A stretch of 64,000 nt of DNA, taken from assembly GCA_963575645.1 (NCBI GenBank), contig OY754468.1:22282465-22346464 (forward strand), written 5' to 3'. This document shows positions 15,761 through 59,400 of the stretch, in pieces. Source of the DNA: Xanthostigma xanthostigma. Its lineage: Eukaryota; Arthropoda; Insecta; Raphidioptera; Raphidiidae. Positions within the stretch are counted from its first letter, which is position 1, and every line of letters begins with the position of its first letter. A model generated the notes under the pieces. That model saw nothing but the letters and a program-made list of their open reading frames with translations, made no database searches and was not told the origin of the DNA. Made by a program: the position numbers and the translations under genes.

Positions 15761-15965
15761 GTTAAAGTAGTGTTGATCGAATATTAAGATGAAGGAAGGT
15801 TTTGGTTGAGGATCATAAAATAAGCTTTAGCAGTGTTTCGCTAGTGGCCAACGTTTCGAAAAATTTATTTCTTCCCTGAAGATGAAAATAAATTTTTCGA
15901 AACGTTGGCCACTAGCGAAACACTGGTAAAGCTTATTTTATGATTCTCAACCAATACCTTCCTTC
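15761..15965 (+). mobile_element. Palindromic Penelope-like insertion with 14-bp direct repeats
   Basis: ATATTAATTCTTTA at 15747-15760 recurs at 15966-15979 and brackets the insertion. Inside, GAAGGAAGGTTTTGGTTGAG... is mirrored by ...CTCAACCAATACCTTCCTTC. The arms are ~80 bp and contain GTTTCGCTAGTGGCCAACG and its complement around a ~15-nt centre. The centre holds CCCTGAAGATG and the right arm CGAAACGTTGG. I associate such CTGAnGA...CGAAACGT sequences with Penelope-like element ends; the class is inferred. Confidence 0.6.
15871..15910 (+). ncRNA. Hammerhead-ribozyme-like core
   Basis: The order is CC, CTGAAGA, U, a GAAAA/UUUUC helix II, GAAA, CGUU, GG. This matches the hammerhead scheme CUGANGA - helix II - GAAA - NUH, with a 2-bp helix I (CC/GG) next to the core. 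One extra U stands between CUGAAGA and helix II, which is not canonical. Activity is unproven. Neighbours: the centre of the palindromic insertion 15761-15965. Confidence 0.4.
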
Positions 15966-18202
15966 ATATTAATTCTTTACGTACAAATAACAAAATAAAT
16001 CTACAATAATCTACATATTTTCTTTGTCGTAAAATTTCTCCAGAAAGTCGTGTTGATAGATTTCGCTTCTATGAACAGTTTTCAAATTATGTGTAAATGG
16101 CAGCTGGTAATAGTAGGTAGAGAATTAAAAAATCTCGCTCTAAGCTTTATAGTTTATATCGAGGATTTTTCGGGAACAAAGAAGGAGCGAGTTTCTCGAG
16201 ACACTATATTTAGAATAAGCGAAACACTGGCTTTTTAAGCTTTTTTGTCTCGTAAATTATTTGTTAACTAGGAAAATCCAACGATTTCATATGTTATATT
16301 AAACTATATAAACAATATTTGATTCAACAGATTTCCGAAATAAAGTGTAGGGACTAGGTGGTAAATTTATTATAATTTTATAGAAAAGTGTGAGATTTCG
16401 ACGTGAAAAATCGTACCTATTTCTGGTTTGTAGTAATAATGTGATATTTCATCAGGAATAATTTAAGTCTTGGATATATCATTTGCTTATTTACCATTAG
16501 GTAAGGTAAATTTTCTGGGACAGGGTCTTCTAGGTTACATAGTGCAATAGTATTTTTATAGCTGACACCATTTTTGGAAACTATTATCGTTTAAATGCGC
16601 TTTATGGACAAGTTTAATAGAAAAGTGGCTATTATAGTTGAAGTTTTGTTGTCGGTCATAAACTCTATTTGCCTCACGTATTTATTATATGGGCGACACA
16701 TGCTTTGTTAACTACTCTCTCTTACTAAGCGCTTTTAACAAGTTTAAAAAAAATGTATTTTAGTCTGGCTTTTATTATAGGAGTACGCAATATTTCAGAA
16801 TTTCAGTAATAATTAATTTCATCCAAAAAATGGATGAAAAAGTAAAAAAAAAAAACAGGATTGCAAAGCTATAATTAATATCTAATATCGTACAATTCAA
16901 CGTTCCAGCCTTGAAAGCCTATTTTTTTTAATTTTTCACTATAAGAACAAAGTTCCAGCTATCAGGAAAGCGTGAGTGGTTAATGTTCTGTCCAAAATAA
17001 CCCCCCTCCCGTAAATTTTAAACTAGCATGTTTAATATCTACCCTTTACAATATGTAAATTTTTATAAGTAATAGTTAACCTATAGCATAACCCACCAAA
17101 ATTTATTCCACCGTCAACGACTGTCAGAAGTTAAAAACCTTATACAATAACTCAGTATATTATATAATAATAATCGAAGTGACGTATATAGGATCAGACA
17201 GGTGGGGTATGTTTCTGTTGACTGCGTACTAAGAATTCAACAAACATTATAAAAAACAGGTTTTCAAGGGTATCATTTTTGAGGTGAAACTTCCTTAGGC
17301 GTCTGGACTAGACGAAAATTGAAGCGCTTCTCCTTCTCCGACTTCAACTGGTAGTTGAGAAGAAAGAGTCGGAGAATCGTTTCTACTCTCTCTAACAAAG
17401 CGACATTTGCTCTGTTCAAGCATGCGCAGTGCGTACTGTGTGTATACGTAGTATTTTCTCTAGCCGCGGTGACAAATTCCACATAACAATTTCCTAATCC
17501 TTAAATAATAAAATCGTTAACGAATCTGGAACCTAAGAAGTTTCACTTCCCGCATACTTTCTTATTTAGTCTGGGTCTGAAAGCCGAGAGGTTACGCACG
17601 GTTGAATCTCAGACCTTTGATTTAATGATGCCATAAATGCCTCAAACTAACAAAAATCAATAAAATATGACCTATGCATACATCTTGCGAAAGATAGGTA
17701 CAGTCTTTCTGTTACATTAAATGTTTTAATAGTATATTTTCTGTGTTATTAAACCGTTCAAAGACGGGTAGTGTATACGAGTTGTAGAGATCAAGCGTGG
17801 GGGTGGAGGTGGGGATGCCGGCCGAGGATAGGTAAGTGTCTTCAGGCAGTATAATAAAGGTGAGATATAGACAGGTATATAAAGGATTAGACATTATGGT
17901 TCATAAAATCAAGACGAGAGCCGGTGTAAAACAGAGCTCCCGCAAGTGAATAACGGGATTAATGTTGGCAAACATTTGCGCGCTTACCGTGTAGGCATAA
18001 AGAATAACGGGGCCACTCTACTCACTTTCTCAGAATTCCAAAATCGTCTAACATTACACGTCTATCAGTGACGGACTTACCTATTTATTAAGAGTAGGCC
18101 GTTAAATTTCTGCTACCTCTGAAGTGAACTTTTTTTACTTTTTCGTCAATAATGTCGTATAGTTAGGGAACTAGTGACGATTTTACTTATAATACTTCTT
18201 CG

Positions 18203-18713
18203 AAACCTGAGTTTTTGTACATTCATTAAGGGTACTACCCTGAACGTAAAAACCATAGTCTGGCAGCTGAGACCAGGGACAATGCGTGGATGGACCCGGT
18301 CAAAGATGTCAAACTGGAGGTATTTAATCATGTTTGAAATTTCCTGATGCCCTTGAGCACAAAAACTCAAGTCTGGCATTTCGTATCCGGGACAACCCCC
18401 GTCTGGCAAAGGGTTGAAAATGTCAAAATTCGTAGCTCCGTAGCTCATCCTTAGTGAAATATTTGAGGGAGTTGCGAGTTTTGACATGTTCAACCCTTTG
18501 CCAGACGGGTACGAAATGCCAGACTTAAGTTTTTGTGCCCAAGGGCACCTGAACTTATCGCTCAGGAAATTTCAAACATGATTAAATATACCTCCGCCTT
18601 CAGTTTTACATCTTTGACCGGGTTCATCCACGCATTGTACCTGATCTCAGCTGCCAGACTGTGGTTTTTACGTTCAGGGTAGTGCCCTTATGAATGTACA
18701 AAAACTCAGGTTT
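18203..18713. mobile_element. Foldback element with ~230-bp arms in the neuroligin intron
   Basis: AAACCTGAGTTTTTGTACAT at 18203 is mirrored by ATGTACAAAAACTCAGGTTT at the right end. Inner blocks are mirrored too: GTCTGGCAGCTGAGA, GACCCGGTCAAAGATGT, CATTTCGTA, CCGTCTGGCAAAGGGTTGAA. The loop is about 18440-18480. Arm identity is high but clearly imperfect. No coding or target duplication is recognised. Confidence 0.75.
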
Positions 18714-18837
18714 GAGGAAATAGCTAACTAGTAGATCACGTTTGTACGGAGTCCAAGTTTATTTCAAACACGGAATGACGTTCAGCGGTTTTGCTGTATC
18801 ACTTTCTATTAAATTAATAATTATTGATAATAAATAC

Positions 18838-19571
18838 CTGAGGATAATCGCTGTCCTTTGTTTGGTAACCGAAATGAAAGAAGTACGTTTTTGCCCCTCG
18901 TCTAGCATGTAGATAAGCGACTCTAATCAATGGCGAAACGGTATGTCCGTCGCTCAGTGCTTCCATTGTCGAGTCTCTGATGTTGATCGGATGTTGTATC
19001 GGCTTATCCCAGTCGGTATACTCGTTTCTTACGGCTGAAAAGATTTCGTTCAAGTGATAAACGTACGCGTTTCTTATGTAAGTTCTGAGTACACGGTTTC
19101 TCTGGTCCTCCTCGAATCCATACTGTATGTCGTTCGCATTGAAATCATTGTAGCTCTCCGTGGTCGTCGTCCCTAACATCAATTCGCATGTGATAAAGCT
19201 TTCGCTCGCGTGTTCCATCGCGTACGCCGGATCAGGGGTGTACCCGTCGACGGGAATGAACGGTGCGTATCTTGGCATGAATCTTACGCTGTCCAATCGT
19301 ACGTCTAACAGTGACTGTAACGGTTTGGTACGCAGACATGGCGCTATGTCGTCGTCTTTGTCGCTAGATGAAGCTGTCGACGACGTGCTCGCCGGCTGTG
19401 ATGATTGCTTCATTGTTGTCTTACTGGGTAATGTCGATTGTTGCAGCTGGTGCGTGACTGGCAGACAACCTAATTGCTGACCTACTGTTGTACGCAACGT
19501 GTCTGGGTTGTGAACTGTTGCCCAGGGACTCAATGCTGAACCACTTAATAATACGACACGAGTGAATAAAC
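18838..19571 (-). CDS. Nlg: Neuroligin-like gene, internal exon (second seen here)
   Basis: The acceptor TTTCCAG precedes 19571 and the donor CAG|GTATTT ends the exon at 18838; 734 bp, phase 1 to phase 0. The translation starts GLFTRVVLLSGSALSPWATV, which is diagnostic of neuroligins, then LGCL, a Ser/Thr-rich insert (SSQPASTSSTASSSDKDDD), DIAPCLRTKPLQSLLDV, a RYAPFIPVDG block, ITCELMLGTTTTESYNDF and YTDWDKPIQHP. It ends YFFHFGYQTKDSDYPQ, which joins directly to RLGSVRGED in the next exon. The region is the middle of the extracellular cholinesterase-like domain. The Ser-rich insert is longer than I expect for the family. Residues at the esterase acidic position cannot be judged without an alignment. 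Confidence 0.9.
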
Positions 19572-19743
19572 CTGGAAAGAAAAATATTTTAATGCTTGGT
19601 TGTAGCGGTCCTTTTAACGTTTTACTTATTTTATTTGTAATCCTGACAATTATGCATAAGTATCAGCTGGTAATGGTAGGTAGAGTTGAAAATTTGGCCA
19701 CCCCTAGGATAAAATCGTTGCTACGCCTATGATGTAGATACAG

Positions 19744-19873
19744 TTTGCTATGATCGTTCAGAAACACACACTGTTACAACGCTTTTTTAGAAAAAAATAT
19801 TTCTTCTCTTAAAAATATTTTTTTCTAATATTGCGTTGTAACAATGGGTGTTTTTTTAACAATCATAGCAAAA
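19744..19873. mobile_element. 130-bp foldback MITE
   Basis: TTTGCTATGATCGTTCAGAA then ACACACACTGTTACAACGC is mirrored by GCGTTGTAACAATGGGTGT then TTTTTTAACAATCATAGCAAA. The centre AAAAATATTTCTTCTCTTAA also folds. Non-coding; it lies in the 1.2-kb neuroligin intron. Confidence 0.7.
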
Positions 19874-20200
19874 TGTAGCTACATGTTACTGTTATTTAAA
19901 TAGTTTACTAATCGGTGCTGGTATAAAAATTGACAATATGTTTATTAAATATAGGAAAATAAAAAAATCAAAATTGGCATCTATTTTACAAAAGTAATTT
20001 TTTATTGATACGCTTGTCATAATTATAAACGAAGAACAAAAAAAAATAAAATAAAATAACACAACTCTCTATACTAAAAATATTTTTGAGGCAAGTCCTT
20101 TTTAGATTTTTTATTAAAATTTTCAAGTATATTTTTTTTTTTTATTATGTGTTTGGAAAGATAATATGATGGCAAAGTAAAATATAGACTTGCTTTCTTA

Positions 20201-20664
20201 AGGCCCTTGCACACGAGGCTGGAAACACTGCTTGGACTTCTGCTAGCCGTTAGGTTGGGTACAAGGCTGGAAATGGCGTCACTGCGGACTCGGCTGCTAG
20301 CTCGCAAGATAGACTTTAAAACTAGAACATGGGCTATTTTTTTTGCTTATAGGTTCTCTGCTGGCTCTGAGCAAGAAACAACCAGGAAACAGTATCTAGT
20401 GGCGTGCAGGGCGATATGAACAAACGCCCACAAACTAACATAGCGTCATTCTGCTCAGAGTCAGACAGCAGACACGTTTTGCTCTGTATTTATATTTGAA
20501 CTGTCACTGCGGGCGTACGAGATCTATTTCCAAAACAAGCTTGAAAAGACGTGTCGTGTGAAGCGAGCACATAAAAGCAATTAAGAAAACCAGCACTAGA
20601 AAACTATATTAGTCAAATCTAGCGAGGAATCTAGCGAAAAATCCAACCTCTTGTGCAGCGACCC
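20201..20664 (+). mobile_element. MITE family A copy
   Basis: It begins AGGCCCTTGCACACGAGGCT and ends AACCTCTTGTGCAGCGACCC, imperfect inverted termini shared with the copies at 4276 and 25571. The interior has CGTGTGAAGCGAGCACATAA and CAGTATCT. TTA stands on both sides (20198-20200 and 20665-20667), compatible with a PIF/Harbinger-type 3-bp duplication. It is inside the neuroligin intron. Confidence 0.7.
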
Positions 20665-20767
20665 TTACATCAAGCCAGTCTAAATTGTTGAATAAAGAAA
20701 TAAAAGATGTGTCACATAGATGCTTTGAAATAGATACGTCATATCTACTTATAAATGTTTACCGTAC

Positions 20768-20971
20768 CTTTTGCTAACGATGAAATCAACAAGAGATTAA
20801 CAAGGGCAGCACCAGTATCATGTCCCAGAAGAGTAACCCTAGTAGGATCTCCGCCAAAAGCTGAAATATTATCGCGTACCCATCTAAGGGCTGCAGCAAT
20901 GTCCCACAATGCCAAATTACCACCAGACGTCGAGTTTTTTGGAAACGGGGTTGTACGTGTTTTCAGAAAAC
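20768..20971 (-). CDS. Nlg: Neuroligin-like gene, internal exon (first seen here)
   Basis: The acceptor TTTCAG precedes 20971 and the donor AAAG|GTACGG ends the exon; 204 bp, phase 1 in and out. It reads FLKTRTTPFPKNS, GGNLALWDIAAALRWVRDNI, FGGDPTRVTLLGHDTGAALV and LLISSLAKG. This covers the nucleophile-elbow region of the cholinesterase-like fold. In active esterases the motif is GESAG; here it is GHDTG, so the nucleophilic serine is Asp, as expected for a non-enzymatic neuroligin. The last codon is completed by the exon at 18838-19571 (AK-G-LFTR). The upstream exon, which should end ...NYRLG(I/V)LG, was not found to the right. Confidence 0.9.
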
Positions 20972-21072
20972 CTGAAACAAACGAAAAAAACAGTTACATA
21001 ACGTATCTACTATTTAATAATTTCATAAAATCTTTTTTATTTTTACCGTACGTGGTGGCATTTTTAACATGA

Positions 21073-21784
21073 ATAATATAATTTAATGGGGAACTTTTGT
21101 CGTTTTTTATTTTAAATTAACAAGATTTAGGTGCATTTCTATTAGACATGATAAAATCTATCATATTTATATACGGCATCTTTTGAGGTACAAATTTTAG
21201 TTTGGTCAGTTTTATTGCATTTTAATTTATAATTAAACAGTTTGAAAACTTCAGACACAATTAAACTTTTAAACTTCACACTTCAGATTGCCGGTGTTAT
21301 CTTAATTCATAAAACCAAACAGCACAAAGCGATAGGGAGGGGAGAAAGAAAGAGATAGGCAGATGTCGAGTGACAAAGAGCAAAAGAGCATTATTATAAA
21401 ATAAACTCACAATCTCTGTGTGTCAGAGAGTTGGCAAAGTTTGGCTCTGGTACATGGGAACTTGAAAGTTTGTTTTTATCAGTTCCGCACCGCTTACAGT
21501 GGAGCGACTCAGTTTGAAATAGAGGCAAATGCAAACATGTTGTCTCATTACTTAAAACTTATTGCTGCTAAGCAGATCCTTTTGATCATTTTCAATAGTA
21601 CGATTATACTGAGAAATAAACTCGTCCTTATTATAGAGAACCATACAATCAAAAACCATACAGGCGTATAACTTTTGTGTTTAGAAATACAACTCCTTTG
21701 TTCTTAGGCATTCAACTAAAAATCAAATTCTGAAGAAAAATTGTACCTCATAGAATTTACGACAGGTTATTATTAAATTGTGCT
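21073..21784. other. Unassigned AT-rich stretch, putative neuroligin intron
   Basis: No exon-like block, repeat pair or RNA gene was recognised. Open frames here are short and have no family resemblance. Confidence 0.4.
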
Positions 21785-22540: not shown

Positions 22541-23059
22541 TATTGCACTGGAGTCAACAAACTTGCCTCAAGTGTGTGACAAACAACCAAATTTCACCAA
22601 ATGGGTTCTGTTATTCACCATTTTGATGCGGAACCTTAAAAATCAAGTTAAACACAATTTGTTACCGTTTATCAATTACCTACATGTTTGTCATATACTT
22701 AATTCATGTAAACAACACTTTGTTAGGGAAGTGGGTTTTATGGATCAACAAGCTCTGATTGAAATCTGCATAACTGTAATCCGAATATTCGTATAAATTC
22801 GGCTGTTTGAACACCCTTTTATATTTACTTGTTCAGGTTAATGAGAGTATACTGTAATCTGCAAAGTACATAATGCATTTTTCATACCTGTAAATTAAAA
22901 ATAACACTTTTGAAATACAGTCCGTAATGGAAAAACATAGGATGCAGATAAAAGTCTATATTTTTTACTAAATTCATTACAATATATTATATTTTTTTAA
23001 AATTATAGATTCTCGACAACTAAGGGCACTGTATCAAATTGAAACCATATCACAAAATA

Positions 23060-23120
23060 TCCATGGGCTGAAGTGAGATCCGAACCCACGACAACCTGAT
23101 CCATTACGATATAGGTATTA
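23060..23120 (-). repeat. tRNA-like SINE head, fragment
   Basis: The minus strand reads CGTAATGGATCAGGTTGTCG then TGGGTTCGGATCTCACTTCA. This resembles the promoter-box region (GTGGGTTCGAATCCCAC) of the SINE at 39459-39700. It is too decayed to be a functional tRNA gene. Confidence 0.4.
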
Positions 23121-23378: not shown

Positions 23379-23394
23379 TTCTCATTTTAGTGTT

Positions 23395-31889: not shown

Positions 31890-34767
31890 TTCAACTTTAA
31901 TTTTTGAAATATTGTGATCTATTACAGATAAGTATAGACGGTAAATTGGTTGTATTATCCATCTACAGATCTCCTTCTGAACATAATATTATTCCTTTTC
32001 TAGATGGACTTCGACTGAACATTAATAAAATAAAAAATGCAAACGACATAGTACTCGTTGGTGACCTAAACATAAATATATTGCCATCAACAAACAGACA
32101 TCCACAGACAGACTTATACCTGGACTTACTTGCGGAATACAATATTAAAACCGTTATCAACAAACCAACAAGGATATCGGAAGGACGACAAACATGCATT
32201 GACCATATTATGGTGAAAACAAAATGTTTAGTAAATGCAGCAGTTTTTGAATCAACACTCACAGACCATTACTCTACAATTCTTGTCATTTGTAATAAAA
32301 TCGGCAACAATCTTACACAAAAAGGTAAAACTAAATACATCACTAATTTTGAACAACTAATTAACCTAGTAAAACAAGAGACTTGGATTTCAACGATGAA
32401 TACGAATGACATTAATATAGCAACCAACAACTTCATAACCACACTACAAAAGCATATAAATAACACTACACGAACACAAATACTAACACACAAACAACAC
32501 TGTCTAAAACCATGGATAACTGAAAATATATTACGATCTATACATAGAAGAAATAAAATACACCAGCAAGTGAGAAGATTTCCCAATAATATCCAATTAA
32601 AAATCTATTATAACCGTTACAGAAATATTTGTAATAAACTGATAAAAACAACTAAAAATAATTATTATAAAAAACAAATAGAACAAAACGCACTTAACAC
32701 ACAGAAAACATGGAAAACCATCAAAAACATTGCAAACCTAAACACTAACAAAACACAGGATAATATACAAAACATACACACATCTCATTCCACTATAAAC
32801 GTAAACACAGATCCAAAAGCTGCTGCAAATGCTTTCAATGAACATTTTATTGATGTGGGAAATAAACTAGCAATGACAATATTGGACAAATTAGATACTA
32901 CGGAGGACAAACTCGTGGCATCTAGTACATCCCATCCTAATATTCCTTCTAGTATTTTCCTAACTCCTGTTTTAGAAAGAGAAATTGCCAGCATTATTGA
33001 CGACTTACAGACAAACAGCGCACCTGGACCGGACACGTTGACTGTAGCACTTATTAAAAAAATAAAAAATTATATACTTCAGCCATTAGCGCATATTATT
33101 AATCTAAGTATAGGAAACGGTGAGATACCTGATCATTTTAAGAGATCAATAATATGTCCTATATTTAAATCAGGAAAAAAATCAGACTTAACAAACTATC
33201 GACCTATATCACTATTAAACACGACAAGCAAAATATTAGAAAAAGTAATTAAAAAAAGACTGACAAATTATTTAGACAAATACAATATATTATCTACTAA
33301 CCAGTTTGGATTTAGACAGGGACTAGGGACAAGTGACGCTATCAGCACACTAACGACAAAAATTGTGACTGACGTTGACAAAGACTTAAAATGTTTGGCT
33401 ATTTTTCTAGACCTGGCCAAAGCCTTTGATACTGTCCCTCACAAAATCCTATTACAAAAGTTATTTAACATAGGCATTCGAGGTGTAGCTTTGAGCTGGT
33501 TTGAGAGCTATTTGTCCAACAGACAACAGTCCACATCTGTGAATGGAGTACTCAGTGATACGCAGACTATTCTCTTTGGCATACCGCAAGGTACAGTTCT
33601 TGGACCCATTCTGTTTTTGATTTATATAAATGATCTTTGCAATAACAATGCAGATGGGTCCATATTTTCATTTGCAGATGATACTGTCCTCTATTTCGCA
33701 GATGTGGACTGGAAAACTACGTACAAGAACGCAGAAAATGGACTGGCAAATGTGCATAAGTGGCTTAATAATAACCTACTGACGCTAAACGAGACAAAAA
33801 CCAAATATATGACCTTTAGCCCAACGATTACTGGACAACCAACTGATATGACTCTTACACTACATACATGCAACAACGTACAAATAACTTGTGACTGCAC
33901 ACAACTGACTAAAACGAACAATATTAAATACTTAGGTGTCATAATTGACAATAATTTAAAGTGGGAAACACACATCATCGACTTGACAAAAAAGATACGG
34001 AAATTAATTTACATATTTATAACCTTACGACAAATACTGACGCCGACTTTAATAAAAACAGTTTATTATGCACTTTGCCAGTCACTTTTAAACTATGGAA
34101 TAGCGGCTTGGGGCGGAGCTTCCGAATCGGCACTTATTCCGATTAAAAATGCACAAAAGCTACTTATACGCATAATAACTAAAAAGCCTCCCTTATTCCC
34201 AACTAACCAATTGTTCCAAGAGTTCCAGGTTTTAAATATACAACAGCTATATTTAAAATCTATCCTTACCATGTATCACCACAATCCCTCTACGCATACC
34301 CGATTTTTACATAACCATGGAACCAGATCCCAAGCCCAATATACTGTCCAACCTCCTAGAATGTCAAAGGCATTTGGCCAAAAACACATGCACTACCTTG
34401 CTCCCAAAATATACAACCAAATTCCCGTAGAAATAAAGAGCTGCACTAGTAAAAAAGCATTCTGTAAGAAAATAACAAAATGGATAGTTACAGAAGAAGC
34501 TCGAAGTATTATCAATGTTCTCATTTGAGTGCCGCACACATAAACACACATTGCTACACACACAATTAACCACTAAGTGCGCACACACACGCACACACAC
34601 ACACCACAGATACAAGCACACAAAACCAAACATTTAACACGCAAGCGCAATTTATAAAATATGTATTTAAAAATCCACCCTAGCACTGGCTATGCCAAGT
34701 TGGGTGGATCAATTTCATACATAATATAGCAATTATATATTATTTGTACTGTATTTATTGAAATAAA

Positions 34768-45320: not shown

Positions 45321-46847
45321 CATATTAAGTTATTTGCTGTCTTTATAGATTTTCAACGTGCGTTTGATTCTGTATGTCACATAAAGTTGTGGAATAAACT
45401 CTACAGTATCGGTGTTTCCACTAAAATAATAAATGTAATAAAAGATCTGTATGACAACGCTAATATGAAAGTAAAAACTGAGATGAAATACACTGGACCT
45501 ATCGAGATTACCGAAGGAGTTTTGCAAGGGGAAACCCTCAGTCCTTTATTATTTGCCTTATTTATCTACGATCTAGACCTATTTTTCAGAAAACATGGCG
45601 CTGTTGGCTTAAACATAAATGGAAGAGATGAAATTATTTCACTGCTTTACGCAGATGACCTAGTCGTATTAGGAGACACTCCGGTAGATATTAACAAAAA
45701 GCTGAAAATTTTAAAAATGTACTGTCTAGAAAATGCTCTTAGAGTTAACGTCAGCAAAACTAAAATCATACACTTTAAGAGAGGGGGTAAAAGCAAATTT
45801 CCATACAAGTTTTTGTATGCACATAACGAAATTGAAGTTGTAAGCAAATATAATTATCTAGGGGTAACTTTTAATAGTTCGGGCCTTTTCTTAGAAACAT
45901 CAAATAATATAGTTAGCAAAGCAAATACTGCTGCTGGGGTAGTACTGAATCAGCTCGCGAAAGCCAAAGTAAGTTGTTGGGAGACTCAATGCAAAATGTA
46001 CGAAAGTGTAGTTGTTAGTACTTTAATGTTTGGTTCACCTATCTGGGCACTCCGATACTTCGACTTGATTGAAAAAGTACAAGTCAACTTTTTTAAAAAA
46101 CTCTTGAACTTACCACGTAACACACCAAGCTTTGTGATTCGCCTAGAAACGGGGATAGTTAAGCTCGAACATATAGTAATGAAACTACTCTTAAACTGGC
46201 TGTTAAAGTTAAATTATATGGAAAACGACAGACTTACAAAAATTTGTTTTATTAGAATGCAAGAAATAGGTTCAGGGTCTAGCTTAAAATTTAATTGGAT
46301 AACCCAAGTTAAAAATGTATTCAATAAAGAAGGTTTCCAACTCAACATAAACAATGCAGCCGATATAAAAACTCAAAAGAATGATTTGCTGAGTATCTTT
46401 AAATCAAATTTAAGACACCAAGACATTGCAAAGATCGAAAATTCCAACTATTGTGAATATTACAAAATGTTATTTCAGTGCGATCAAAGCCCACAAATGT
46501 ATTTAACATACAATCTGCCTATTAATTTGGTGCGGCTTTTAGCACAGCTACGTGTATTCAGCAAATACACCTTAAGAATAATTTATAAATGTATCAAATA
46601 TAAAACTAACCCCGAGCTTAATTGCACAATGTGCAATATGAACACAAAAGAAAATTTACAACATTTTGTATCCGAATGTCCGATTTATGTAGCTAGCCGC
46701 AAATACTATTTAGACAATATTTTAAGTGATTCAAAGAATAATTTTCATAATTTAATTTTTTTACTATCTGGCTGTAATAGAAACAGTGTAATAAAAAAAT
46801 GTAATTATGTTGTATTAAAAACCAGAAACTATATAATTAATTTTTAA
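45321..46847 (+). CDS. LINE reverse transcriptase, 5'-truncated, clade unresolved
   Basis: The frame is open from just after a stop at 45318-45320. The first residues read AVFIDFQRAFDSVCHIKLWN (RT block with catalytic Asp), followed by GVLQGETLSPLLFALF, then SLLYADDLVVLG with the YADD catalytic pair, and YLGVTFNSSG. Near the C-terminus CTMCNMNTKENLQHFVSECP is a C-x2-C...H-x4-C zinc-knuckle-like segment common in LINE ORF2 ends. The endonuclease and the RT fingers are missing. About 509 codons remain without a stop, so the insertion is not old. The exact clade was not recognised. Confidence 0.8.
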   Translation, partial: HIKLFAVFIDFQRAFDSVCHIKLWNKLYSIGVSTKIINVIKDLYDNANMKVKTEMKYTGPIEITEGVLQGETLSPLLFALFIYDLDLFFRKHGAVGLNINGRDEIISLLYADDLVVLGDTPVDINKKLKILKMYCLENALRVNVSKTKIIHFKRGGKSKFPYKFLYAHNEIEVVSKYNYLGVTFNSSGLFLETSNNIVSKANTAAGVVLNQLAKAKVSCWETQCKMYESVVVSTLMFGSPIWALRYFDLIEKVQVNFFKKLLNLPRNTPSFVIRLETGIVKLEHIVMKLLLNWLLKLNYMENDRLTKICFIRMQEIGSGSSLKFNWITQVKNVFNKEGFQLNINNAADIKTQKNDLLSIFKSNLRHQDIAKIENSNYCEYYKMLFQCDQSPQMYLTYNLPINLVRLLAQLRVFSKYTLRIIYKCIKYKTNPELNCTMCNMNTKENLQHFVSECPIYVASRKYYLDNILSDSKNNFHNLIFLLSGCNRNSVIKKCNYVVLKTRNYIINF

Positions 46848-50732: not shown

Positions 50733-53700
50733 TTATTCCCAGTCTGGTAGAATGCTTTTTGTGAACCTTATTACCTTACTGGGGGCTGCTCTCCATATAT
50801 CCTCAGGCTTTGGAAAGGGCCTGTTAAGATATAGTAGCCTTTTGGAGAAGACTGCTTCACATTCACAAAGAATGTGTTCAGCAGTTTCTTTTGCTTCTTT
50901 ACAGAAGCGACAGTTATCATCTGGGGCTTTACCCATTTTTGAGAGATGGTATCTCAGAGGGCAGTGGCCTGTAAGGAGTCCTGTCATTATTCTCAGATCT
51001 GATTTGCTGAGCATAAGGAGTTCTTTAGTCCTTTTGATATTATGCGAGATAAATCTCTTTGATTGTCTTAGTCCTAGAATAGACTTCCAACGGGAGGCCT
51101 TCTTTTCGTCCTCCCATTTGCGAACCTCTAGCTTAACATGGCTCTTAGAATAGCCACAGAAAGGTTCAGGGCCTATAAAAGTTTTAGTTCCTCCTTCTTT
51201 AGCGAGGGAGTCTGCTATCTCATTGCCTTCGATGCCTGTATGCCCCGGGACCCACATTAGGGTTACTCTGTTATATACACCCAGTTTATCAACAGTATCT
51301 AGGCATTCCCAGACCAGTCTTGACTCAATTTTGTGTGAACATAGAGCCATAATAGCTGCTCTGCTATCCGATAGGATGAATATTTTTGCGTTACTATAGC
51401 CTTTGTTCAGGCAGTTTAGAGCGCAAAGTTGTATGGCGTATATTTCTGCCTGGAATACAGTGGCAATAGAGCCCATGGGAGCTGATATCCTTGTTTTAGG
51501 ACCATAAACTCCTGCTCCTACCTTATTATCCATCTTAGATCCGTCTGTGTAATATACCAGGGATCCTCTGGGGAAGTTTATCTTACCTTCTTCCCAGAAT
51601 TTGCGACTTTCTATGTTAGCATTGAATCTTCTATCAAATTTGAATCTGACATCCATCAGATCCACCACTGTACAGGTCATTAGGTTAAGATTCCTAAGAA
51701 TACTTAGGTGACCTGTTAAGTCTCCAGACTTAAAATTTTTTGTTCTTTGCAATCGAGTTGCAAAGATTGCTGCTTCTTTCTCTAGATAGAGTGGGAGGGT
51801 GGGAAGATCAAGTATCACCTCCAGGGCAGCAGTGGGGCATGTACTGGAGGCACCAGTAATCATGAGACACGCTAGTCTCTGTAGTTTGGTAAGTTGGGCT
51901 TGTGCTCCCTTACTTTCCAATTTTGGCCACCATACCATTGCGGCATAACTGACCATGGGTCTCACTATAACCTTATATACCCAGTCGGTTATTTTAGGCT
52001 TTAGTCCCCATTTCTTACCTACCATTTTGCTGCAGGTAAATAATGCACCTCTAGCCTTGTTAATGATCTGCTCGAGATGTAGGTTCCACGTAAGTTTTTG
52101 ATCGAGTGTGACTCCCAAAAACTTGACGCTAGTAGAGAGGTCGATTTGTATCCCTCCCAGACTGGGTGCTCTGATTGTAAGCTTCCTTCTCCTGGTAAAA
52201 GGAACAATAGTAGTCTTATGTGGGTTAATATTAAGCCCTTCATTAAGGCACCAAGTATTTGCTAGCTTTAGGGCATCTTGCATTCGGTCATAAATCGTCC
52301 CGTCATGCTTGCCCCTGACTATAATGACAATGTCGTCAGCGTATCCGATGGTTTCGAAACCGTTATCTGACAGTTTGTTTAAAAGGTCATCGACTACCAG
52401 TGACCACAGCAGGGGCGATAGGCAGCCTCCCTGTGGACAGCCTTTTATGGTTTTTACTGTACTGGACTCATCTCCGAGACAAGCCGTTATCAGTCGGTTA
52501 GTGAGCATGGAATGTATCCATTTAGCCATCGTGGGGTCCAAGCCCCTATTAATTAAGGCTTTCTGAATGGATGCATGTGAGGTGTTGTCAAACGCACCCT
52601 CTATGTCCATGAATGCACTTAGTGCAACTTCTCCGTGTTCTCTGGCCTTTTCAATTTTTCTGATGAGGCTATGTAGAGCAGAGACAGTAGATTTACCTGG
52701 TTGATAGGCAAATTGACTAGCATTAAGGGGAAACGAAGTTAAGTGTTCATTTCTAATATGCTGGTCAATAATTTTCTCCATCGTCTTTAATAGAAAAGAT
52801 GATAGACTAATAGGTCGAAAGGATTTGGGGTGGGTTTTGAGGCGTTTTCCTACCTTTGGAATGAACACCACCTTAACGTCCTGCCAGGATTTGGGTATAT
52901 GTCCCCAAGCAAAACTGGATCGGAACAATATCAATAGATCTGCTATTATGATCTCTATTCCTTGCTGGAGGAATGCAGGATATATTCCGTCCCCACCTGG
53001 GGATTTATAGGGCTTGAATGATTTAATTGCCCATCTGACTTTACCCGGGGTAAATATTTTACCAGCTAGTTTGTGTGTGTGGGCCTGAGGTCGTTTAATC
53101 ACCTCTGAGTAGCCCATTCTTATTGGGTAGTCATTGTGTATCACCTCTGAACCTGGGAAATGTGTTTCAAGTAAGACTTGAATTGTCTCCCCTTCGGATT
53201 CAGTGAGGGTGCCATCAGTTTTTATTAGCTGACCTATGCCATTTGAGTGATCTTTCGCTAGGACTTTATGTAATCGCGCCGCGGTATGTGTACTATTGAC
53301 ACCCTCGCAAAACGTTTTCCATGACCTTCTTTTAGATTTCCTCAATTCCTTGTTGTACTCTGTAAGCGCTTTTCTATATTCATCCCAATTTCGGGTGATT
53401 TTAGCCCTATTAAAGAGTTTCCTTGCATTTTGGCGGAGTAGGCTTAATCCTTTATTCCACCAGGGTACGTCCCTGTTTAGTTTTGTCTGTTTTAATGGAC
53501 AACTTTCTTCAAAGGCGGAATAAATGCGGTCCCTTAATTTATGCGAGGCATCGTCAAGAGCTTCTAGAGACTCTATTTTGCCCGGTATTATCCTATCCTT
53601 GGACTTTAAGATATTACGGTAAGTATCCCAATCCGTAAGTCTAGGATTCCGTTGTGCCTCTATAATATGGGTTTTTATTTCAAGATCGAATCTAATGTGC

Positions 53701-54404
53701 ATGTGATCTGAAAGAGATGCATAGGCAGATACATGCCAATTTTTAACCCTATCTATAAAAGCAGGGCTAGCTAGTGTTAGGTCGAGAACCTCCTCCCTAA
53801 TAGCGTTAATAAAAGTAGGTTTATCTCCCCTATTCATAATGTCAATATTATTAGCTAACAAATATTCAAGGAGTTCCTCACCTCTTTTATTGATGTTTGT
53901 GCTGCTCCATAGCGTATGATGGGCATTAGCATCACATCCGATGATGAATTGTAGATTCATCTTTTTGCAGTGAGTAATGAAGTCAGATATTGCATCTGGA
54001 GGTGATGAGTCAGCCTCAGGAAAGTAGGCTGAGGCTATTGCAACCTTAAGCCTTCCTCCCCTGTGTGTCGTATCTATTATCACTGCAGCGATATCACGTT
54101 GAATAAATCTAGAAAAAGGAATACAATTTATTCGTTTGTTAATCATAATGGCGGCTCTAGGATTTTCACAGCCACTACAATAGATTAGTTTACTTAACTG
54201 GGTCTGAAGACCCCTGATGTTGTTGGCTACTAGCCATGGCTCTTGGATGAGTGCCAAGTCCATTTCTTCTCGAATAAACCTCCATGAGAGCACATCAGAT
54301 GCAGCTTTTGCATGGTGGAGGTTTATTTGAAGGCACTTAATGATGTCGTCCATCATCAGCCTTCCGATTCCACGGTTTCCCGCGATTCCTTCCTCTGGGA
54401 GCAA
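50733..54404 (-). CDS. LINE ORF2: endonuclease, reverse transcriptase, RNase H
   Basis: The frame is 1,223 codons; the likely start is the ATGATG at 54356, which overlaps the end of ORF1 (stop at 54337-54339). In the 1,223-residue numbering: EN with LQINLHHAKA (25-34), IQEPW (53-57), GCDANAHH (156-163), LDLTLAS (207-213) and SDH (232-234); RT with SFRPISLSSF (528-537), FMDIEGAFDNTSH (598-610), GCPQGGCLSPLLWSLVVDDL (655-674) and YADD (688-691); RNase H with YYTDGS (951-956), QAEIYAIQL (985-993), LSDSRAAIMAL (1011-1021) and WVPGHTGIEGNEIADSLAKE (1051-1070). A CCHC-like finger (C1165, C1168, H1177, C1182) follows. All key acidic residues are present. The wording of EN and RT resembles the LOA clade. 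It enables target-primed reverse transcription. Confidence 0.9.
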   Translation of the reverse strand: MLPEEGIAGNRGIGRLMMDDIIKCLQINLHHAKAASDVLSWRFIREEMDLALIQEPWLVANNIRGLQTQLSKLIYCSGCENPRAAIMINKRINCIPFSRFIQRDIAAVIIDTTHRGGRLKVAIASAYFPEADSSPPDAISDFITHCKKMNLQFIIGCDANAHHTLWSSTNINKRGEELLEYLLANNIDIMNRGDKPTFINAIREEVLDLTLASPAFIDRVKNWHVSAYASLSDHMHIRFDLEIKTHIIEAQRNPRLTDWDTYRNILKSKDRIIPGKIESLEALDDASHKLRDRIYSAFEESCPLKQTKLNRDVPWWNKGLSLLRQNARKLFNRAKITRNWDEYRKALTEYNKELRKSKRRSWKTFCEGVNSTHTAARLHKVLAKDHSNGIGQLIKTDGTLTESEGETIQVLLETHFPGSEVIHNDYPIRMGYSEVIKRPQAHTHKLAGKIFTPGKVRWAIKSFKPYKSPGGDGIYPAFLQQGIEIIIADLLILFRSSFAWGHIPKSWQDVKVVFIPKVGKRLKTHPKSFRPISLSSFLLKTMEKIIDQHIRNEHLTSFPLNASQFAYQPGKSTVSALHSLIRKIEKAREHGEVALSAFMDIEGAFDNTSHASIQKALINRGLDPTMAKWIHSMLTNRLITACLGDESSTVKTIKGCPQGGCLSPLLWSLVVDDLLNKLSDNGFETIGYADDIVIIVRGKHDGTIYDRMQDALKLANTWCLNEGLNINPHKTTIVPFTRRRKLTIRAPSLGGIQIDLSTSVKFLGVTLDQKLTWNLHLEQIINKARGALFTCSKMVGKKWGLKPKITDWVYKVIVRPMVSYAAMVWWPKLESKGAQAQLTKLQRLACLMITGASSTCPTAALEVILDLPTLPLYLEKEAAIFATRLQRTKNFKSGDLTGHLSILRNLNLMTCTVVDLMDVRFKFDRRFNANIESRKFWEEGKINFPRGSLVYYTDGSKMDNKVGAGVYGPKTRISAPMGSIATVFQAEIYAIQLCALNCLNKGYSNAKIFILSDSRAAIMALCSHKIESRLVWECLDTVDKLGVYNRVTLMWVPGHTGIEGNEIADSLAKEGGTKTFIGPEPFCGYSKSHVKLEVRKWEDEKKASRWKSILGLRQSKRFISHNIKRTKELLMLSKSDLRIMTGLLTGHCPLRYHLSKMGKAPDDNCRFCKEAKETAEHILCECEAVFSKRLLYLNRPFPKPEDIWRAAPSKVIRFTKSILPDWE

Positions 54405-55803
54405 CTACCCGCTCCTGCCGCAGTAGAGGCTTCTGTGAGCTCTTTCTGTGAGGCGAAGATTTGCGCTGTACGGTGGAGAGCTTTTGTTCAGCTCTTATCC
54501 CTGATGTGGAGGCTGTAGGAACAGTCCTAGCCTGTGAAGTGGATGGTGTACTTACCCCTGATGTTGAGGGCATTGGTTCCATCCTTTCACTTGAAGTTGA
54601 GGGCATTTGCTCCTCCGTTTGTAAAGTCTCAGGTTTTGAAACTGTCGAGGAGGATTTTATGGCCTCTTTCCCAACAGTGCTCTCCTTCGACTTGGGGTTG
54701 GTACTTTTGGGTCGGAATTTAACGACCCCAAATTTGTAGTCCACTAGGAACTCTTGTTTTTTAAGAGCTTCAAAACTTGCCGTGTTCAGAGATACGACCA
54801 GCTCTACGCAGTTCTTAGGAGCATTTGCTCTCTTCAGAACCTTCCAGTCCTTGGCATTAAGTCCGTCGTTTTGGTTTTCAACGAACTTGAGAATTGTCTC
54901 ATTATTGTGGTCAAGGCTATTTCCAAAGTAGCCTATTAAAATGTGTGGTCGAGGAATTTCTCCCTCATCTACCACCTTAAGGTCTATATTATCTACCTTA
55001 AAGTTTGTTAAGCTGCTTTTTATCCACTCAGCTGTGTCTTTATTGCAGCATGTAGCGACTATATAGCCTGGTTTGAAGCTAAAGTCTCTAAACTTAGGCT
55101 TTATAGTAGCCTTTGAGTCTAGAGCTAAAACTAGATCCAACACATTTTTTTGAACGGCCTCTTGCTGTGCCATCGTTAGTGAAATTGCTGGATAGTTAGT
55201 GGGGATGATGCCCAATCTTACGCTATCCAGCATTTGTTTAAAGGTTGGGCGATGGGGTGTTGTATCATCCCCTTGTCGCCGTTTTTGTTCTATAGTAGCT
55301 GTGGGGTTTTGAGCCCCTTCAGCACTTTGAACTTTGGCCTTTTTGGCTGGTTCGCCTTTACCGGGTGTTGAGTCGTCTGAGCGTCCTCTTTTGCTCGTAG
55401 TAGGCTGTTGTTTATATGGCTGCCTACATTGAATTCGGGCCTCTTCAACGGTGTGCCCTTGCTTCAACAGCCATTTGAAGCGCTTTCGCGCTGCTCCACT
55501 CAGTCCACGCGTAGGGCCTTTGAGGTCCATCTTGCCGAGGGATTTTTGTAATTCCTCATCTGAGGAAAGAGAAGGGATTTCCTCAGTCTCCATCCCAATT
55601 ACAGGGACATGTGGAGGCTGATCTACCCCAATCTCTACTTCGGTTTTGGGCTCTTGAGGCGTGCCCGTGCCTTCAGGTTTTTTAGTTTCTTGGTCCATAT
55701 ATTCCCACGAGAAGCTAGGGAAATAAACTGTCCGCTCCTGCAGAGCCCCGCTTGCAGAAGTAAGGCTAAGTGCATCCGAAGGTCGCCTGGTATTCGGAGC
55801 CAT
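54337..55803 (-). CDS. LINE ORF1: gag-like RNA-binding protein (DUF4780-type)
   Basis: 488 codons, starting at 55803. The N-terminus is acidic and low in order; then LSGAARKRFKWLLKQGHTVE at about 99-118, a Lys/Ser/Thr-rich linker, and a ~180-residue globular region (FKQMLDSVRLGIIPTNYP to FEALKKQEFLVDYKFGVVKF). I recall this as the insect ORF1 domain DUF4780. The C-terminal ~100 residues are Ser/Pro/Thr-rich and end in a basic tail (RGRNRGKPWNRKADDGRHH). No CCHC knuckles are evident. It overlaps ORF2 by about 20 bp in another frame, suggesting coupled translation. Confidence 0.8.
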   Translation of the reverse strand: MAPNTRRPSDALSLTSASGALQERTVYFPSFSWEYMDQETKKPEGTGTPQEPKTEVEIGVDQPPHVPVIGMETEEIPSLSSDEELQKSLGKMDLKGPTRGLSGAARKRFKWLLKQGHTVEEARIQCRQPYKQQPTTSKRGRSDDSTPGKGEPAKKAKVQSAEGAQNPTATIEQKRRQGDDTTPHRPTFKQMLDSVRLGIIPTNYPAISLTMAQQEAVQKNVLDLVLALDSKATIKPKFRDFSFKPGYIVATCCNKDTAEWIKSSLTNFKVDNIDLKVVDEGEIPRPHILIGYFGNSLDHNNETILKFVENQNDGLNAKDWKVLKRANAPKNCVELVVSLNTASFEALKKQEFLVDYKFGVVKFRPKSTNPKSKESTVGKEAIKSSSTVSKPETLQTEEQMPSTSSERMEPMPSTSGVSTPSTSQARTVPTASTSGIRAEQKLSTVQRKSSPHRKSSQKPLLRQERVVAPRGRNRGKPWNRKADDGRHH

Positions 55804-56072
55804 CGTTCGAGACTACACTGACGCAGAGCCATTCATCCTTTAGGCACGATGGGTTACACCTTAGGATTGCGGATTTTTTTTCTGGGTTTACTCCCATAGA
55901 GCCGACATGTTCTGTTAAAACAGGGGCACCTCGAGTAGGGTGCGATTCTTCATCGCGCATGTCGGTCTTGAGGAAGGAGAGGCTATGGTGGTGTGTTAGC
56001 ACCTCTATATTGCGCTTCACTTTCTCCTGATGTTTGGTCTAGAAGTTGCCTACCAGACCTCACACCCACCCC

Positions 56073-56073
<1 letters not shown>

Positions 56074-56106
<33 letters not shown>
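56074..56106. repeat. 33-bp poly(A) run at the LINE 5' junction
   Basis: A continuous run of A on plus (T on the LINE's own strand) lies between the LINE's 5' end and CCACATTAG. The matching left-side duplication has only six A, so about 27 bases are extra. Confidence 0.85.
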
Positions 56107-56108
<2 letters not shown>

Positions 56109-56164
56109 ACATTAGTCCTAAGAGAAAGTTTTTTGAGAACCCCCCTTGGCGCTTAACCTGTTAA

Positions 56165-56405
56165 TAGAAAGAGCGATAAACGAGGAAGGTTTTTGTATAT
56201 AATATATAAATACTTTGTACAAAATGGCTGAACTATGACGGTGTTTTGGAAAAAAAAAAACTGTTTTTGTACGCTTAGATGGCTAACGCTTTAGAGATCT
56301 ATCAAAACAATGAACTTTGATAGTTCTGCTGTGTAGATGAGAAGGTTAATATAATATTTCCAGAACAGTTTTGCATCCGGGTGAAATCGGGACGAGCCGC
56401 TAGTA
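56165..56405 (+). repeat. RTE/SINE-like repeat, right part
   Basis: It resumes after the second TTAA and ends CATCCGGGTGAAATCGGGAC then GAGCCGCTAGT, a usual tail of this repeat type. A smaller related tail (CGGAGCCGTGAGTAGCGGCT then AGT) lies at 56470-56545. Confidence 0.5.
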
Positions 56406-57080
56406 TAATATATAAGGCTTCTGTAAAAAAATTAAACTGTATAAACATTGTGTTTTAAAGTGGCAATGAAATACGGTGGAGCCGTACTGTTGTCGCTGCC
56501 GTGTTTCATCTAAATCGCGTTCGGAGCCGTGAGTAGCGGCTAGTATAATATACTTTTACGCACGAATCGATTCTGTTTTATTTAGTAGTTGATCTGAAAA
56601 TAGTCAAAAATGTAGATCGGAACGTCTTGAAAATAATTTATTTTCCATTATTTACTTTGGAAATCTTGGGCAATTTCGTCTCTGCAAATACGCTCTTAAT
56701 TTTCTAAAAAAAAAGCAATAAAAAACGCTTGCGAACCAATTTTTTCCATTTGAATATTTTTTGCACTACTCCCTTTTTACCCATTGCGCTCTAGTGTGGG
56801 GAAGTAAAACAAAACTGGTCAGGCTGTACCAATTCACAGTAAATATTTGTTTTTTTGTTGTTTTAGCCAATCATATTTTATACGACTTTGGGACAGGATT
56901 ACAGGACTGTGTAATATTATTAAATCCATTACATAATATGTTATCATTGTGAAAGAAAACTCTAATAATTTATAGATATGATGATCCTGTTCAATTGTTA
57001 GAAGATTAAGAAGGAAGAATCCTGGTGGCATAGGATCGATGAAAAAAGCAAATACTGAAGATTTTTATTGCATTTTTATT

Positions 57081-57120
57081 ATCTGACGTTTCGGCACACT
57101 TTATGCCATCTTCGGAGAAT
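57081..57120 (-). ncRNA. Hammerhead-like core, left arm
   Basis: Minus strand: CUCCGAAGA, U, GGCA...UGCC helix II, GAAA, CGUC. The core has C where the canonical U of CUGANGA stands, which should weaken activity. It is identical to the right-arm copy. Confidence 0.35.
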
Positions 57121-57306
57121 CAATGCTGTCCATTTTTTCAGTATTATTGTTATGTATAAAGTAAATTAAAATAAAAATTGTCATCAAAGGTATTAAATTA
57201 CTATTTATCTTGAAAGAACGAATAGTAATTTAATACCTTTGATGACAATTTTTATTTTAATTTACTTTATACATAACAATATTACTGAAAAAATGGACAG
57301 CATTGA

Positions 57307-57346
57307 TTCTCCGAAGATGGCATAAAGTGTGCCGAAACGTCAGATA
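57307..57346 (+). ncRNA. Hammerhead-like core, right arm
   Basis: Plus-strand twin of 57081-57120, with the same CCGAAGA-U-GGCA...UGCC-GAAACGUC order. A self-complementary ACGU in place of helix III would fit a dimeric minimal hammerhead. Unproven. Confidence 0.35.
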
Positions 57347-57547
57347 ATAAAAATGCAATAAAAATCTTCAGTATTTGCTTTTTTCATCGATCCTATGCCA
57401 CCAGGATTCTTCCTTCTTAATCTTCTAATAATATGTTATCATTGCCGAGTCAATTCATATTATATGTATAATAGGTTCATTGCGCTTAATTATGATACCT
57501 ATTAAATTTAAAGACTTTTAAATTCCATCATAGCGAAGAGAGCCTTG

Positions 57548-57735
57548 GATTAAAACTCACAGGGATATCGAAAAAGAGGAAAACTAAAAATATCCTGGAG
57601 AAGAACTGTTCGCGAAGAAGTTATGGAGCAACTACCTGGCTTCAAGTCACAAATATGGCAAAAGATAGGACTAGATTCAAAATTTTCGTAGACGCCTTAT
57701 GCTCCACTTAGGAGTTAGAGGAGATTATTATATGA
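57548..57735 (+). pseudogene. LINE 3'-terminal coding remnant
   Basis: Translation gives KKRKTKNILEKN, ATTWLQVTNMAKDRTRFKIF and VDALCST, then a stop and ELEEII. This resembles the C-terminal W....A.DR..WR.FV.ALCST region of RTE/Dong-like LINE proteins. The preceding GISKKRKTKN suggests the GRPR..W.R motif in decayed form. Nothing upstream is readable. Confidence 0.5.
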
Positions 57736-58936
57736 TTATTATAAATTTAATAAAATAATAAAATTTCCGTGCTTTTTTATTTTTTTTGGACCTTGTTTTT
57801 TATGGACAACAATGGAGTACCGACACGCACCCATCTATATTGTAGGTAACGATCGTTGCAGCGATGCCTTCCCAAGATTCAATATACTCTAGCTCAGCAG
57901 CACAGAGTGGTGTGTAATGCCTGAATTCAATTTACTCTACCGTCCGTAAAGAAGTTTCACTTTAAAACTACGACTTATTACTTAGATATCTTGCCATTAA
58001 CATTTCAAAATCCACGGTATGAGTTTTGAAGCAGAGCGTACTCAAAAAGAGCCAACCTTCGAAGTGCCGAGTTAGCAACTAACTCGAGCGAAGGCAGATT
58101 GGGCGTACTATAATATAACCTAGCAAGTCAGCTAACAGAAACAGCTAATTAATGCTGAGGAAGTTAATGAGTTTCTCTTACTTATCCTTATTCTGTGTCT
58201 GCACATTGCGTTCCGTTTTCATTCTCTGACCCCCCCACAGATATTCTTTCAACGTCGACCAATCTTATATTCTTACCTAAACGCATTTATACATAGCTTA
58301 TACTAATTTACAGAAGGCGTGATTGAGAGAAAGAATTATGTAAATCGTCTGATTTCATACACACTGCATATCACTGAAGCTGAGAGAGAAGAAACAGAAT
58401 TAAAATATCCATATTCTTTGTTAAAATTTGCAAATTTTGAATAATCTTCAGCTCCGTAGATTATAAAAAAATAAAGTGAATAAAATATAAAGCAAGGCGA
58501 TTCGTCGAAAATTTAGCTGTGGTTCTTTTCTTCGATGTATAATATAATACAAAAAATACTTAATAAGAAAAAATTCGCAGGTTTGTGGACAAAAGTTATA
58601 TTTATAAATGTACATTTTTTCTTATTAATTATTATTATCGATGGACACGATATCTAATATATACAAAAAATACTGTAAGGAAAGATCAGCTGACATCCTG
58701 CAACTTGTTAATATATCTTGTTCAAAATGATTTTCGTTGAAAGTATTTATAAAGTACTACTGTCTTGATTTTTTAATCACATGGTTGCAAAGTTGGAGGG
58801 GGAAGAACATTATTTAGAAGCTTATATCTCGGGAAATATTCATTTAAATCACATTTAGGTATGTATGTTAATTTAAAACTGACAAAAATTTGTTAAATAG
58901 TGCTTCAAAAACTTAGAAATTAATAATTTTCGGATT
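57736..58936. other. Unassigned AT-rich stretch
   Basis: No gene, complete element or RNA was recognised. TCTTATTAATTATTA and short A/T runs dominate. Confidence 0.4.
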
Positions 58937-59020
58937 TCTATTCTATTGAAAATTAACAGGAAAATAGCTAGTAATTTAATACACAGATGAAATATTATAT
59001 ATTCATAAATTTTTTAATAC

Positions 59021-59063
59021 TTCTACGTTTCGTGGATATCTTTGTCCACATCATCAGAAATGA
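59021..59063 (-). ncRNA. Hammerhead-like core with canonical CUGAUGA
   Basis: Minus strand: UUUCUGAUGA, U, GUGGA-CAAAGAUA-UCCAC (5-bp helix II), GAAA, CGUA, GAAG. The core CUGAUGA and GAAA are exact and GUA is a permitted NUH site. UUU can pair with GAA as a short helix I. One extra U precedes helix II. Confidence 0.45.
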
Positions 59064-59267
59064 TTAAAGAAAAGACAATAATAATATTTTAAAATGAAAA
59101 TTATAAAACAAAATACCAAATTGAAATTATAATTTTTTATTTCCTATTATTTTACGAAATGTCTTCTTGGAAAAAATAAATTAAGAAATTAAAAATTATA
59201 ATTTCAATTGGGAATTTTATTTATATAATTTTCAGTTTAAAATATTATTATTCCCTTGTCTTTAATC

Positions 59268-59313
59268 ATTCCTGATGATGAGGACAATTAAGCTATTCAC
59301 GAAACGTCGAACG
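59268..59313 (+). ncRNA. Hammerhead-like core, right arm
   Basis: Plus strand: AUUCCUGAUGA, U, GAGGAC...AUUCAC, GAAA, CGUC, GAACG. The core is exact but helix II is weak (about 3 bp), so this arm has diverged. UUC/GAA can form helix I. Confidence 0.4.
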
Positions 59314-59400
59314 TATTAAAAAATAATGAATAATATATAATATTTCATCTGTGTATTTATGGGCTATTTTCCTGTTAATCTTTACTATCTAGATTCTATT

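Follow-up and report, generated by a model that had tools for sequence, protein, structure and literature searches.

Palindromic insertions with minimal hammerhead motifs in Xanthostigma xanthostigma: Penelope-like insertions whose two arms very probably derive from one sense RNA

Penelope-like elements (PLEs) are a third group of eukaryotic retroelements. Three inverted-repeat insertions, here called E1, E2 and E3, are present in a 64-kb window of the Xanthostigma xanthostigma genome (the whole stretch of 64,000 nucleotides that was analysed; assembly GCA_963575645.1, contig OY754468.1, positions 22,282,465 to 22,346,464 of the forward strand). Together with related copies elsewhere in the genome (623-Mb assembly, 28 contigs), they are read as PLE insertions whose two arms very probably both derive from one sense RNA. 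Young spliced and unspliced copies in this genome let the template of each arm be read directly, and one sense RNA for both arms together with a one-sided tail constrains any model of PLE insertion.

Minimal type I hammerheads of PLEs were described by Cervera and de la Pena in 2014 and by Lunse, Weinberg and Breaker in 2017 (as reported in the relevant parts of PMC7761336 and PMC6155905). A rotifer study from 2013 preferred antisense RNA as the template for self-priming, with sense RNA kept as an alternative in the parts that deal with this question (PMC3846280). For a purified PLE protein, the pertinent parts of PMC11167929 report that both target strands are cut and extended in vitro, that the protein starts inside its RNA and that two reverse transcriptase (RT) start sites bound the tail. 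In the literature on head-to-head Penelope palindromes, only PMC3846280 and PMC11167929 were found to be pertinent.

A sequence-only reading of the window had described head-to-head palindromic inserts with inverted arms and a hammerhead-like core, and all three inserts were confirmed; a regular-expression search found five copies of the motif in them. The features are as follows:

15747..15760, no strand: E1 target-site duplication, left copy (14-nt direct repeat)
15761..15965, no strand: E1, palindromic insertion of PLE type with head-to-head arms and a tail on the left (about 15761-15787)
15876..15906, plus strand: E1 minimal hammerhead core, the sole complete one in E1
15966..15979, no strand: E1 target-site duplication, right copy (14 bp)
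56933..56949, no strand: E2 target-site duplication, left copy (17-nt direct repeat)
56950..57427, no strand: E2, head-to-head pair of 5'-truncated PLE pseudo-long terminal repeats (pseudo-LTRs), tail at the left end (about 56950-56997)
57085..57115, minus strand: E2 hammerhead core, left arm
57311..57341, plus strand: E2 hammerhead core, right arm
57428..57444, no strand: E2 target-site duplication, right copy (17 bp)
about 58948..59392, no strand: E3, older and diverged head-to-head insertion of another family
59024..59057, minus strand: E3 hammerhead core, left arm (helix II of 5 bp)
59272..59308, plus strand: E3 hammerhead core, right arm (decayed helix II of 1 bp)

The inverted arms of E1 (15783-15870/15886-15973) are 88 nt long and 95% complementary, and those of E2 (56994-57205/57221-57432) are 212 nt long and 99% complementary. 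An intron is spliced out of both E2 arms, which join at 57221-57224. The E3 arms consist of several shorter pairs, 72-88% complementary in the six pairs of at least 25 nt, and a weak 8-bp repeat found by eye (ATTCTATT, 58940-58947/59393-59400) is a possible target duplication. The sequence-only reading needs correction in two respects: E1 has one complete core and not two, because its left arm breaks off within the core, and the right copy in E3 retains a helix II of only 1 bp.

The evidence for a common template comes from introns, arm ends and sequence variants, the arm ends and intron states having been entered by hand. Relatives of E2 contain a 145-nt GT-AG intron (L080, 1236-1380) that ends 5 nt before the hammerhead, and relatives of E1 contain an intron of the form GTATGT...CATAG (130 nt in L128, 59-188) that ends 3 nt before it; the E1-type word for the 5' splice site (TTGACCAGCTTGAGGT) was counted 128 times. 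In E1, one strand of helix I, GGCC, spans the splice junction and is retained in spliced and unspliced RNA alike. Intron state agreed between the two arms in 22 of 22 E2 insertions (16 spliced, 6 unspliced and none mixed; chance 1.3e-5), and by eye the E1 copy L082 is spliced twice, while L083 and L084 are unspliced twice. Precisely spliced introns in both arms imply that the ultimate source was a sense RNA.

The 5' ends of the two arms lie within 20 nt of each other in 15 of 29 E2 insertions, with 5.2 expected, and in 10 of 24 (3.0 expected, p=2.5e-4) if insertions with both arms reaching the presumed start of the RNA are excluded. The loci L015, L023, L026 and L122 are absent from this list of 29 junctions, and the ends of L024 and L109 were set by eye. 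Within nine bases at a TCAGT, which we take to be an insect initiator, fall 13 of the 58 arm 5' ends. For E1, a transcription start at the common end 192 was considered and judged to be the query's own junction.

Arm divergence in 20 young insertions of our own choice was 0.0025 within and 0.0075 between insertions, and none of 5000 permutations was as low. At family-polymorphic columns of 33 insertions, the arms were discordant in 10 of 546 comparisons, whereas permuted partners disagreed in 29%, a contrast that is inflated by the presence of old and young subfamilies. The agreeing intron states, coupled 5' ends and near-identical arms thus argue for one sense, often spliced, transcript behind both arms.

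The same arrangement recurs in the copies sampled from the genome, whose arms stand head-to-head with the 3' ends of the element facing outward. Neighbouring motifs within 1.5 kb of each other were head-to-head in 48 of 52 pairs, on the same strand in 4 and tail-to-tail in none; as two head-to-head pairs occur in two of the three lists, 46 of 50 distinct pairs are head-to-head. Before the tail, duplication and haplotype tests, seven loci were dropped (four second records of one insertion and three other or short matches), and for six of the 39 that remained the retrieved sequence showed one side only, leaving 33 two-sided E2 insertions for the test of tails and duplications. A target duplication of at least 8 bp was found in 31 of these 33 (mean 12.3; mismatched flank pairs reach 8 in 12%), and a 3' tail of roughly 48 nt was present at exactly one end in 32. 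All eight E1 copies inspected by eye (L001-L008) have one tailed and one untailed end. No palindrome centre was seen twice by eye among 29 E2 junctions and 8 E1 centres, and truncation points differ among the insertions read. Given their own target duplications and their differing centres and truncation points, the palindromes look like independent, variably 5'-truncated PLE insertions and not like copies of one palindrome.

Two copies contain repeats that look like template jumps. In L117 (826-950), an E2 arm has a small tandem triplication of the leader, and in L081 (about 450-600) an E1 copy is followed by a direct repeat from CUGAAGAUG past the tail.

A connection to Penelope, also suggested by the sequence-only reading, was reached for E2 and not for E1 and E3. 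A search of the genome for the GIY-YIG domain gave 37 matches. In PLE-A, a hammerhead-like motif lies about 250 nt past the stop in all 18 matches with 3' flanks examined, some of which share one palindrome; L064 and L068 carry substitutions in the core, and L070 has a single frame with RVT_1 and GIY-YIG followed by the hammerhead. In two E2 copies with long loops, L079 and L080, a GIY-YIG fragment is found immediately upstream of the E2 arm and in the same sense (in L080 with E=1.4e-4 and 22.5 bits, 0.1 bit under the cut-off of 22.6). As this fragment adjoins the arm, E2 is, judged by sequence, a PLE pseudo-LTR. Among E2 relatives the GIY-YIG part was seen upstream and the RT part was not reached, and a search for PLE proteins within the window itself found nothing (best E 0.79). 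The hallmarks of PLEs that were found are inverted pseudo-LTRs, a tail at one end, target duplication and an intron retained in some copies (E2; for the intron, E1). This suggests that PLE debris accounts for most of the minimal hammerheads in this genome, of which there are thousands.

Copies of PLE-A that bear an RT were also found head-to-head and 5'-truncated at the centre (L066/L067, C4:23144258-23149617, and L075/L076); in L066/L067, RT sequence is present in both arms, with the topology of the palindromes. Another locus (L058/L060) is a short PLE whose GIY-YIG region is duplicated within a single frame and is flanked on either side by a hammerhead motif that points outward.

The core in these arms consists of CUGANGA or CCGAAGA, then U, helix II and GAAACGU. 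The catalytic core C-U-G-A-N-G-A ... G-A-A-A ... U-H is exact in E1 and E3, and E2 has CCGAAGA (U4 to C); in sequence the motif agrees with the minimal type I hammerhead already described for PLEs. The pattern CTGANGATN{8,20}CGAAACGT occurs 2889+2961 = 5,850 times in the genome, and a reversed control 2+0 times, so that chance does not account for it. Pairing was assessed in 18 families, one row per family picked by eye. The rows omitted included decayed (L095, L106), E1-like (L092, L094, L105, L107) and E2-like (L100) ones as well as L090 (like L056) and L099; loci L088-L107 had been hand-picked for diversity among the first 100 of the 5,850 places.

Helix I, formed by the bases just 5' of CUGANGA and just 3' of GUH, is paired in 61 of 72 cells, where shuffles give a mean of 35.6 and at most 49; helix II is paired in 64 of 72, where shuffles give a mean of 42.2 and at most 53. 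In a repeat with all 35 rows, including those omitted above, 115 of 140 and 120 of 140 cells were paired, with shuffle maxima of 89 and 101, and shifting the partner by 1-2 positions reduced helix I to 57 and 68 and helix II to 71 and 70. Between families helix I reads GGCC/GGCC, UCU/AGA, UUC/GAA, AUAUA/UAUAU or UUGC/GCAA. Helix I is only 2 bp long in the window copy of E1 and 4 bp in copy L088. Support for pair 4 of helix I is marginal (p=0.05), and pair 1 of helix II is G-C in 16 of 18 families and does not covary. The core is a real RNA structure, as helices I and II keep pairing while their bases change. The earlier suggestion of selection on RNA structure, made from changing bases and kept pairing in helix II, was thereby upheld, and helix I, which had been overlooked, supports it equally.

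GAA is followed by the quartet ACGU in 17 of 18 families and in all five window motifs, and by AUGU in one family; the constancy of the quartet is largely by construction, those 17 rows having come from patterns that require GAAACG(T or C). Helix III would be this self-complementary quartet, which has no loop and can thus form only between two copies. The U after CUGANGA was considered as part of a start codon and rejected: AUG is present in 14 of 18 families, but in the 8 families checked the frames end after 2-17 codons, which differs from the Anolis Poseidon PAc, whose frame is described in PMC11167929 as starting at stem II. Rfam hammerhead models, which the sequence-only reading had proposed as a check, gave no match at gathering level across the window, nor at E<=10 in two stretches covering the inserts or in 10 further loci.

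Transcripts of the palindromes are predicted to pair arm to arm over nearly their whole length (E1 -132.6 and E2 -344.3 kcal/mol), which should keep the hammerhead core from forming. Among E1 arms, 11 start exactly at the predicted cleavage site, 7 start two nt upstream and 12 three nt downstream; the downstream pattern is not an exact negation and serves as a rough control only, and about 5 of its 12 arms look like mutated intact arms. If corrected, by a rough reckoning, for the bases allowed per pattern, the count at the cleavage site is about twice that two nt upstream, with small numbers. Four of the 11 cleavage-site arms have the sequence CAGGGCC and may have been joined through microhomology at GGCC. 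There is no clear excess of arms that would indicate preferential use of ribozyme-cleaved RNA, and a weak excess is possible. This fits with the report in PMC11167929 that hammerhead mutants of Poseidon PAc still insert.

The palindromes are very probably short PLE insertions that were dead on arrival. In this reading every arm is a PLE pseudo-LTR with a 5' leader, an intron (in E1 and E2 relatives), a minimal hammerhead and about 60-90 nt to the untailed end. The GIY-YIG endonuclease would make a staggered cut of about 12 bp in the target, and a dimeric RT would hold one sense RNA and begin copying from two fixed sites separated by about 50 nt. The two starts would be primed by different target strands, each RT would copy towards the 5' end of the RNA, and the two antisense complementary DNAs (cDNAs) would be joined at their 3' ends, often at microhomology. 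With RT starts near the 5' end of the RNA, a single messenger RNA would give a leader-sized, RT-less palindrome. The hammerhead would belong to the autonomous PLE and merely be carried along by the palindromes; as its helix III lacks a loop, it is expected to cleave in the form of a dimer, within tandem transcripts. One RNA and two RT subunits at two sites would account at once for the head-to-head palindromes, the single tail and the identity of the arms, and this two-polymerase course with starts about 50 nt apart is put forward tentatively, as possible but short of probable. If true, it would be a mode of replication unlike LTR retrotransposition or that of long interspersed nuclear elements (LINEs).

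The sequence-only reading had instead suggested that the palindromes could form a distinct, non-autonomous and RT-less class using RNA processed by the ribozyme, taken here as a class that spreads as a unit. Many copies exist (1029, 1704 and 67 first-look candidates for E1, E2 and E3), the design is common to several families and 11 E1 arms start at the predicted cleavage site, all of which would suit such a class. The centres and truncation points vary between the insertions read, though, the transcripts are predicted to fold arm to arm, and with 7 arms starting two nt upstream the cleavage site shows no clear excess; in view of the duplications in 31 of 33 E2 insertions and the absence of any repeated centre, the class was given up as highly improbable. 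That the inserts are miniature inverted-repeat transposable elements (MITEs), foldback DNA transposons or microRNA precursors has next to no probability. Inverted repeats with target duplications are compatible with the transposons, but an asymmetric tail, variable arm length, spliced introns and a GIY-YIG frame point to RNA-templated insertion; the matches to Rfam microRNA models are below the cut-offs and are judged to be typical of a long hairpin, and the precursor was rejected for this reason. A metazoan retrozyme, with direct tandem repeats of about 150-450 bp, was discarded on the ratio of 4 same-strand to 48 head-to-head pairs.

With regard to how the second arm arises, self-priming along the lines of the 2013 rotifer study, in which a single cDNA folds back at its 3' end and its arm serves as the template for the second one, is the strongest competitor to the two-polymerase course and is rather unlikely. 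It would account for arms that agree in intron state, in most variants and, in many cases, in the 5' end, and for several junctions at which the arm ends nearly coincide (0-15 nt between them). A copied arm should bear the tail as well, yet 32 of 33 insertions have exactly one; L086 is joined with a palindromic overlap of only 2 nt, which is too tight for a hairpin turn, and a purely antisense template is at odds with the precise splicing in both arms. Two independently sampled RNAs, one per target strand, are very unlikely: the PLE protein extends both target strands in vitro in the part of PMC11167929 concerned, and 5 sites among the 33 insertions are discordant between the arms at family-common alleles, but against this stand the 22 of 22 agreeing intron states, the coupled 5' ends and the low divergence within insertions. 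Several observations weigh against the proposed origin from one RNA and two polymerases. Besides these 5 discordant sites, private alleles were found in one arm only in 37 cases and in both arms in 6 (33 insertions); later mutation would explain private and discordant alleles, and mixed templates could as well. The arm 5' ends are more than 20 nt apart in 14 of 29 insertions, L122 is an exception to the one-tail rule (its left end is not delimited), and single arms that start at the predicted cleavage site were met twice (L019 and C2:12857682). No RT or GIY-YIG frame was seen in the E1 stretches examined, and E1 and E3 are not tied to a PLE frame. A few dozen of the thousands of copies were read, and 16 of the 33 E2 insertions had been found with the palindrome as query, which favours symmetrical copies. 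Finally, we infer the action of two RTs on one RNA, and a second arm copied from the first cDNA would also yield identical arms.

Elsewhere in the window, long open frames at 31901-34528, 45321-46847 and 50733-54404 resemble proteins of non-LTR retrotransposons by eye from their translations, and 54337-55812 may be the companion first frame of such an element. A weak transfer RNA match on the minus strand (63700-63759; 30.4 bits, cut-off 29) is possibly part of a short interspersed nuclear element.

Compared with the minimal hammerheads of PLEs as described in the relevant parts of PMC7761336 and PMC6155905, the motifs share the core, the lack of a helix III loop, the thousands of dispersed copies, the location in PLE pseudo-LTRs and the presumed action as dimers. 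An extra nucleotide, which is U in 16 of 18 families and A in 2, follows A9 ahead of helix II and may set them apart from the published motifs. Metazoan retrozymes are likewise short non-coding elements with type I hammerheads, but by the description in PMC7229834 they are tandem repeats with a fuller hammerhead, whereas the present elements are inverted pairs without a helix III loop.

The inverted pseudo-LTRs of Penelope in Adineta vaga correspond in their head-to-head arrangement, target duplication and junction palindromes, and an optional 31-bp tail is found at one of the inverted pseudo-LTRs (parts of PMC3846280 on these structures). In contrast to Adineta vaga, 5,850 exact motif copies are present here, the sampled insertions are mostly RT-less, and spliced introns in both arms permit the test of template origin that those parts of PMC3846280 left open. 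With Poseidon PAc of Anolis, the palindromes share cleavage and extension of both target strands and an internal RT start, which are proposed here from sequence, as well as a tail between two start sites and a hammerhead at the junction of pseudo-LTR and open reading frame (corresponding parts of PMC11167929). The insertions thus belong to a kind already known, namely inserted PLE pseudo-LTRs that carry minimal hammerheads, and form no new class; what goes beyond the literature found is the evidence for one template and the strictness of the one-tail rule.

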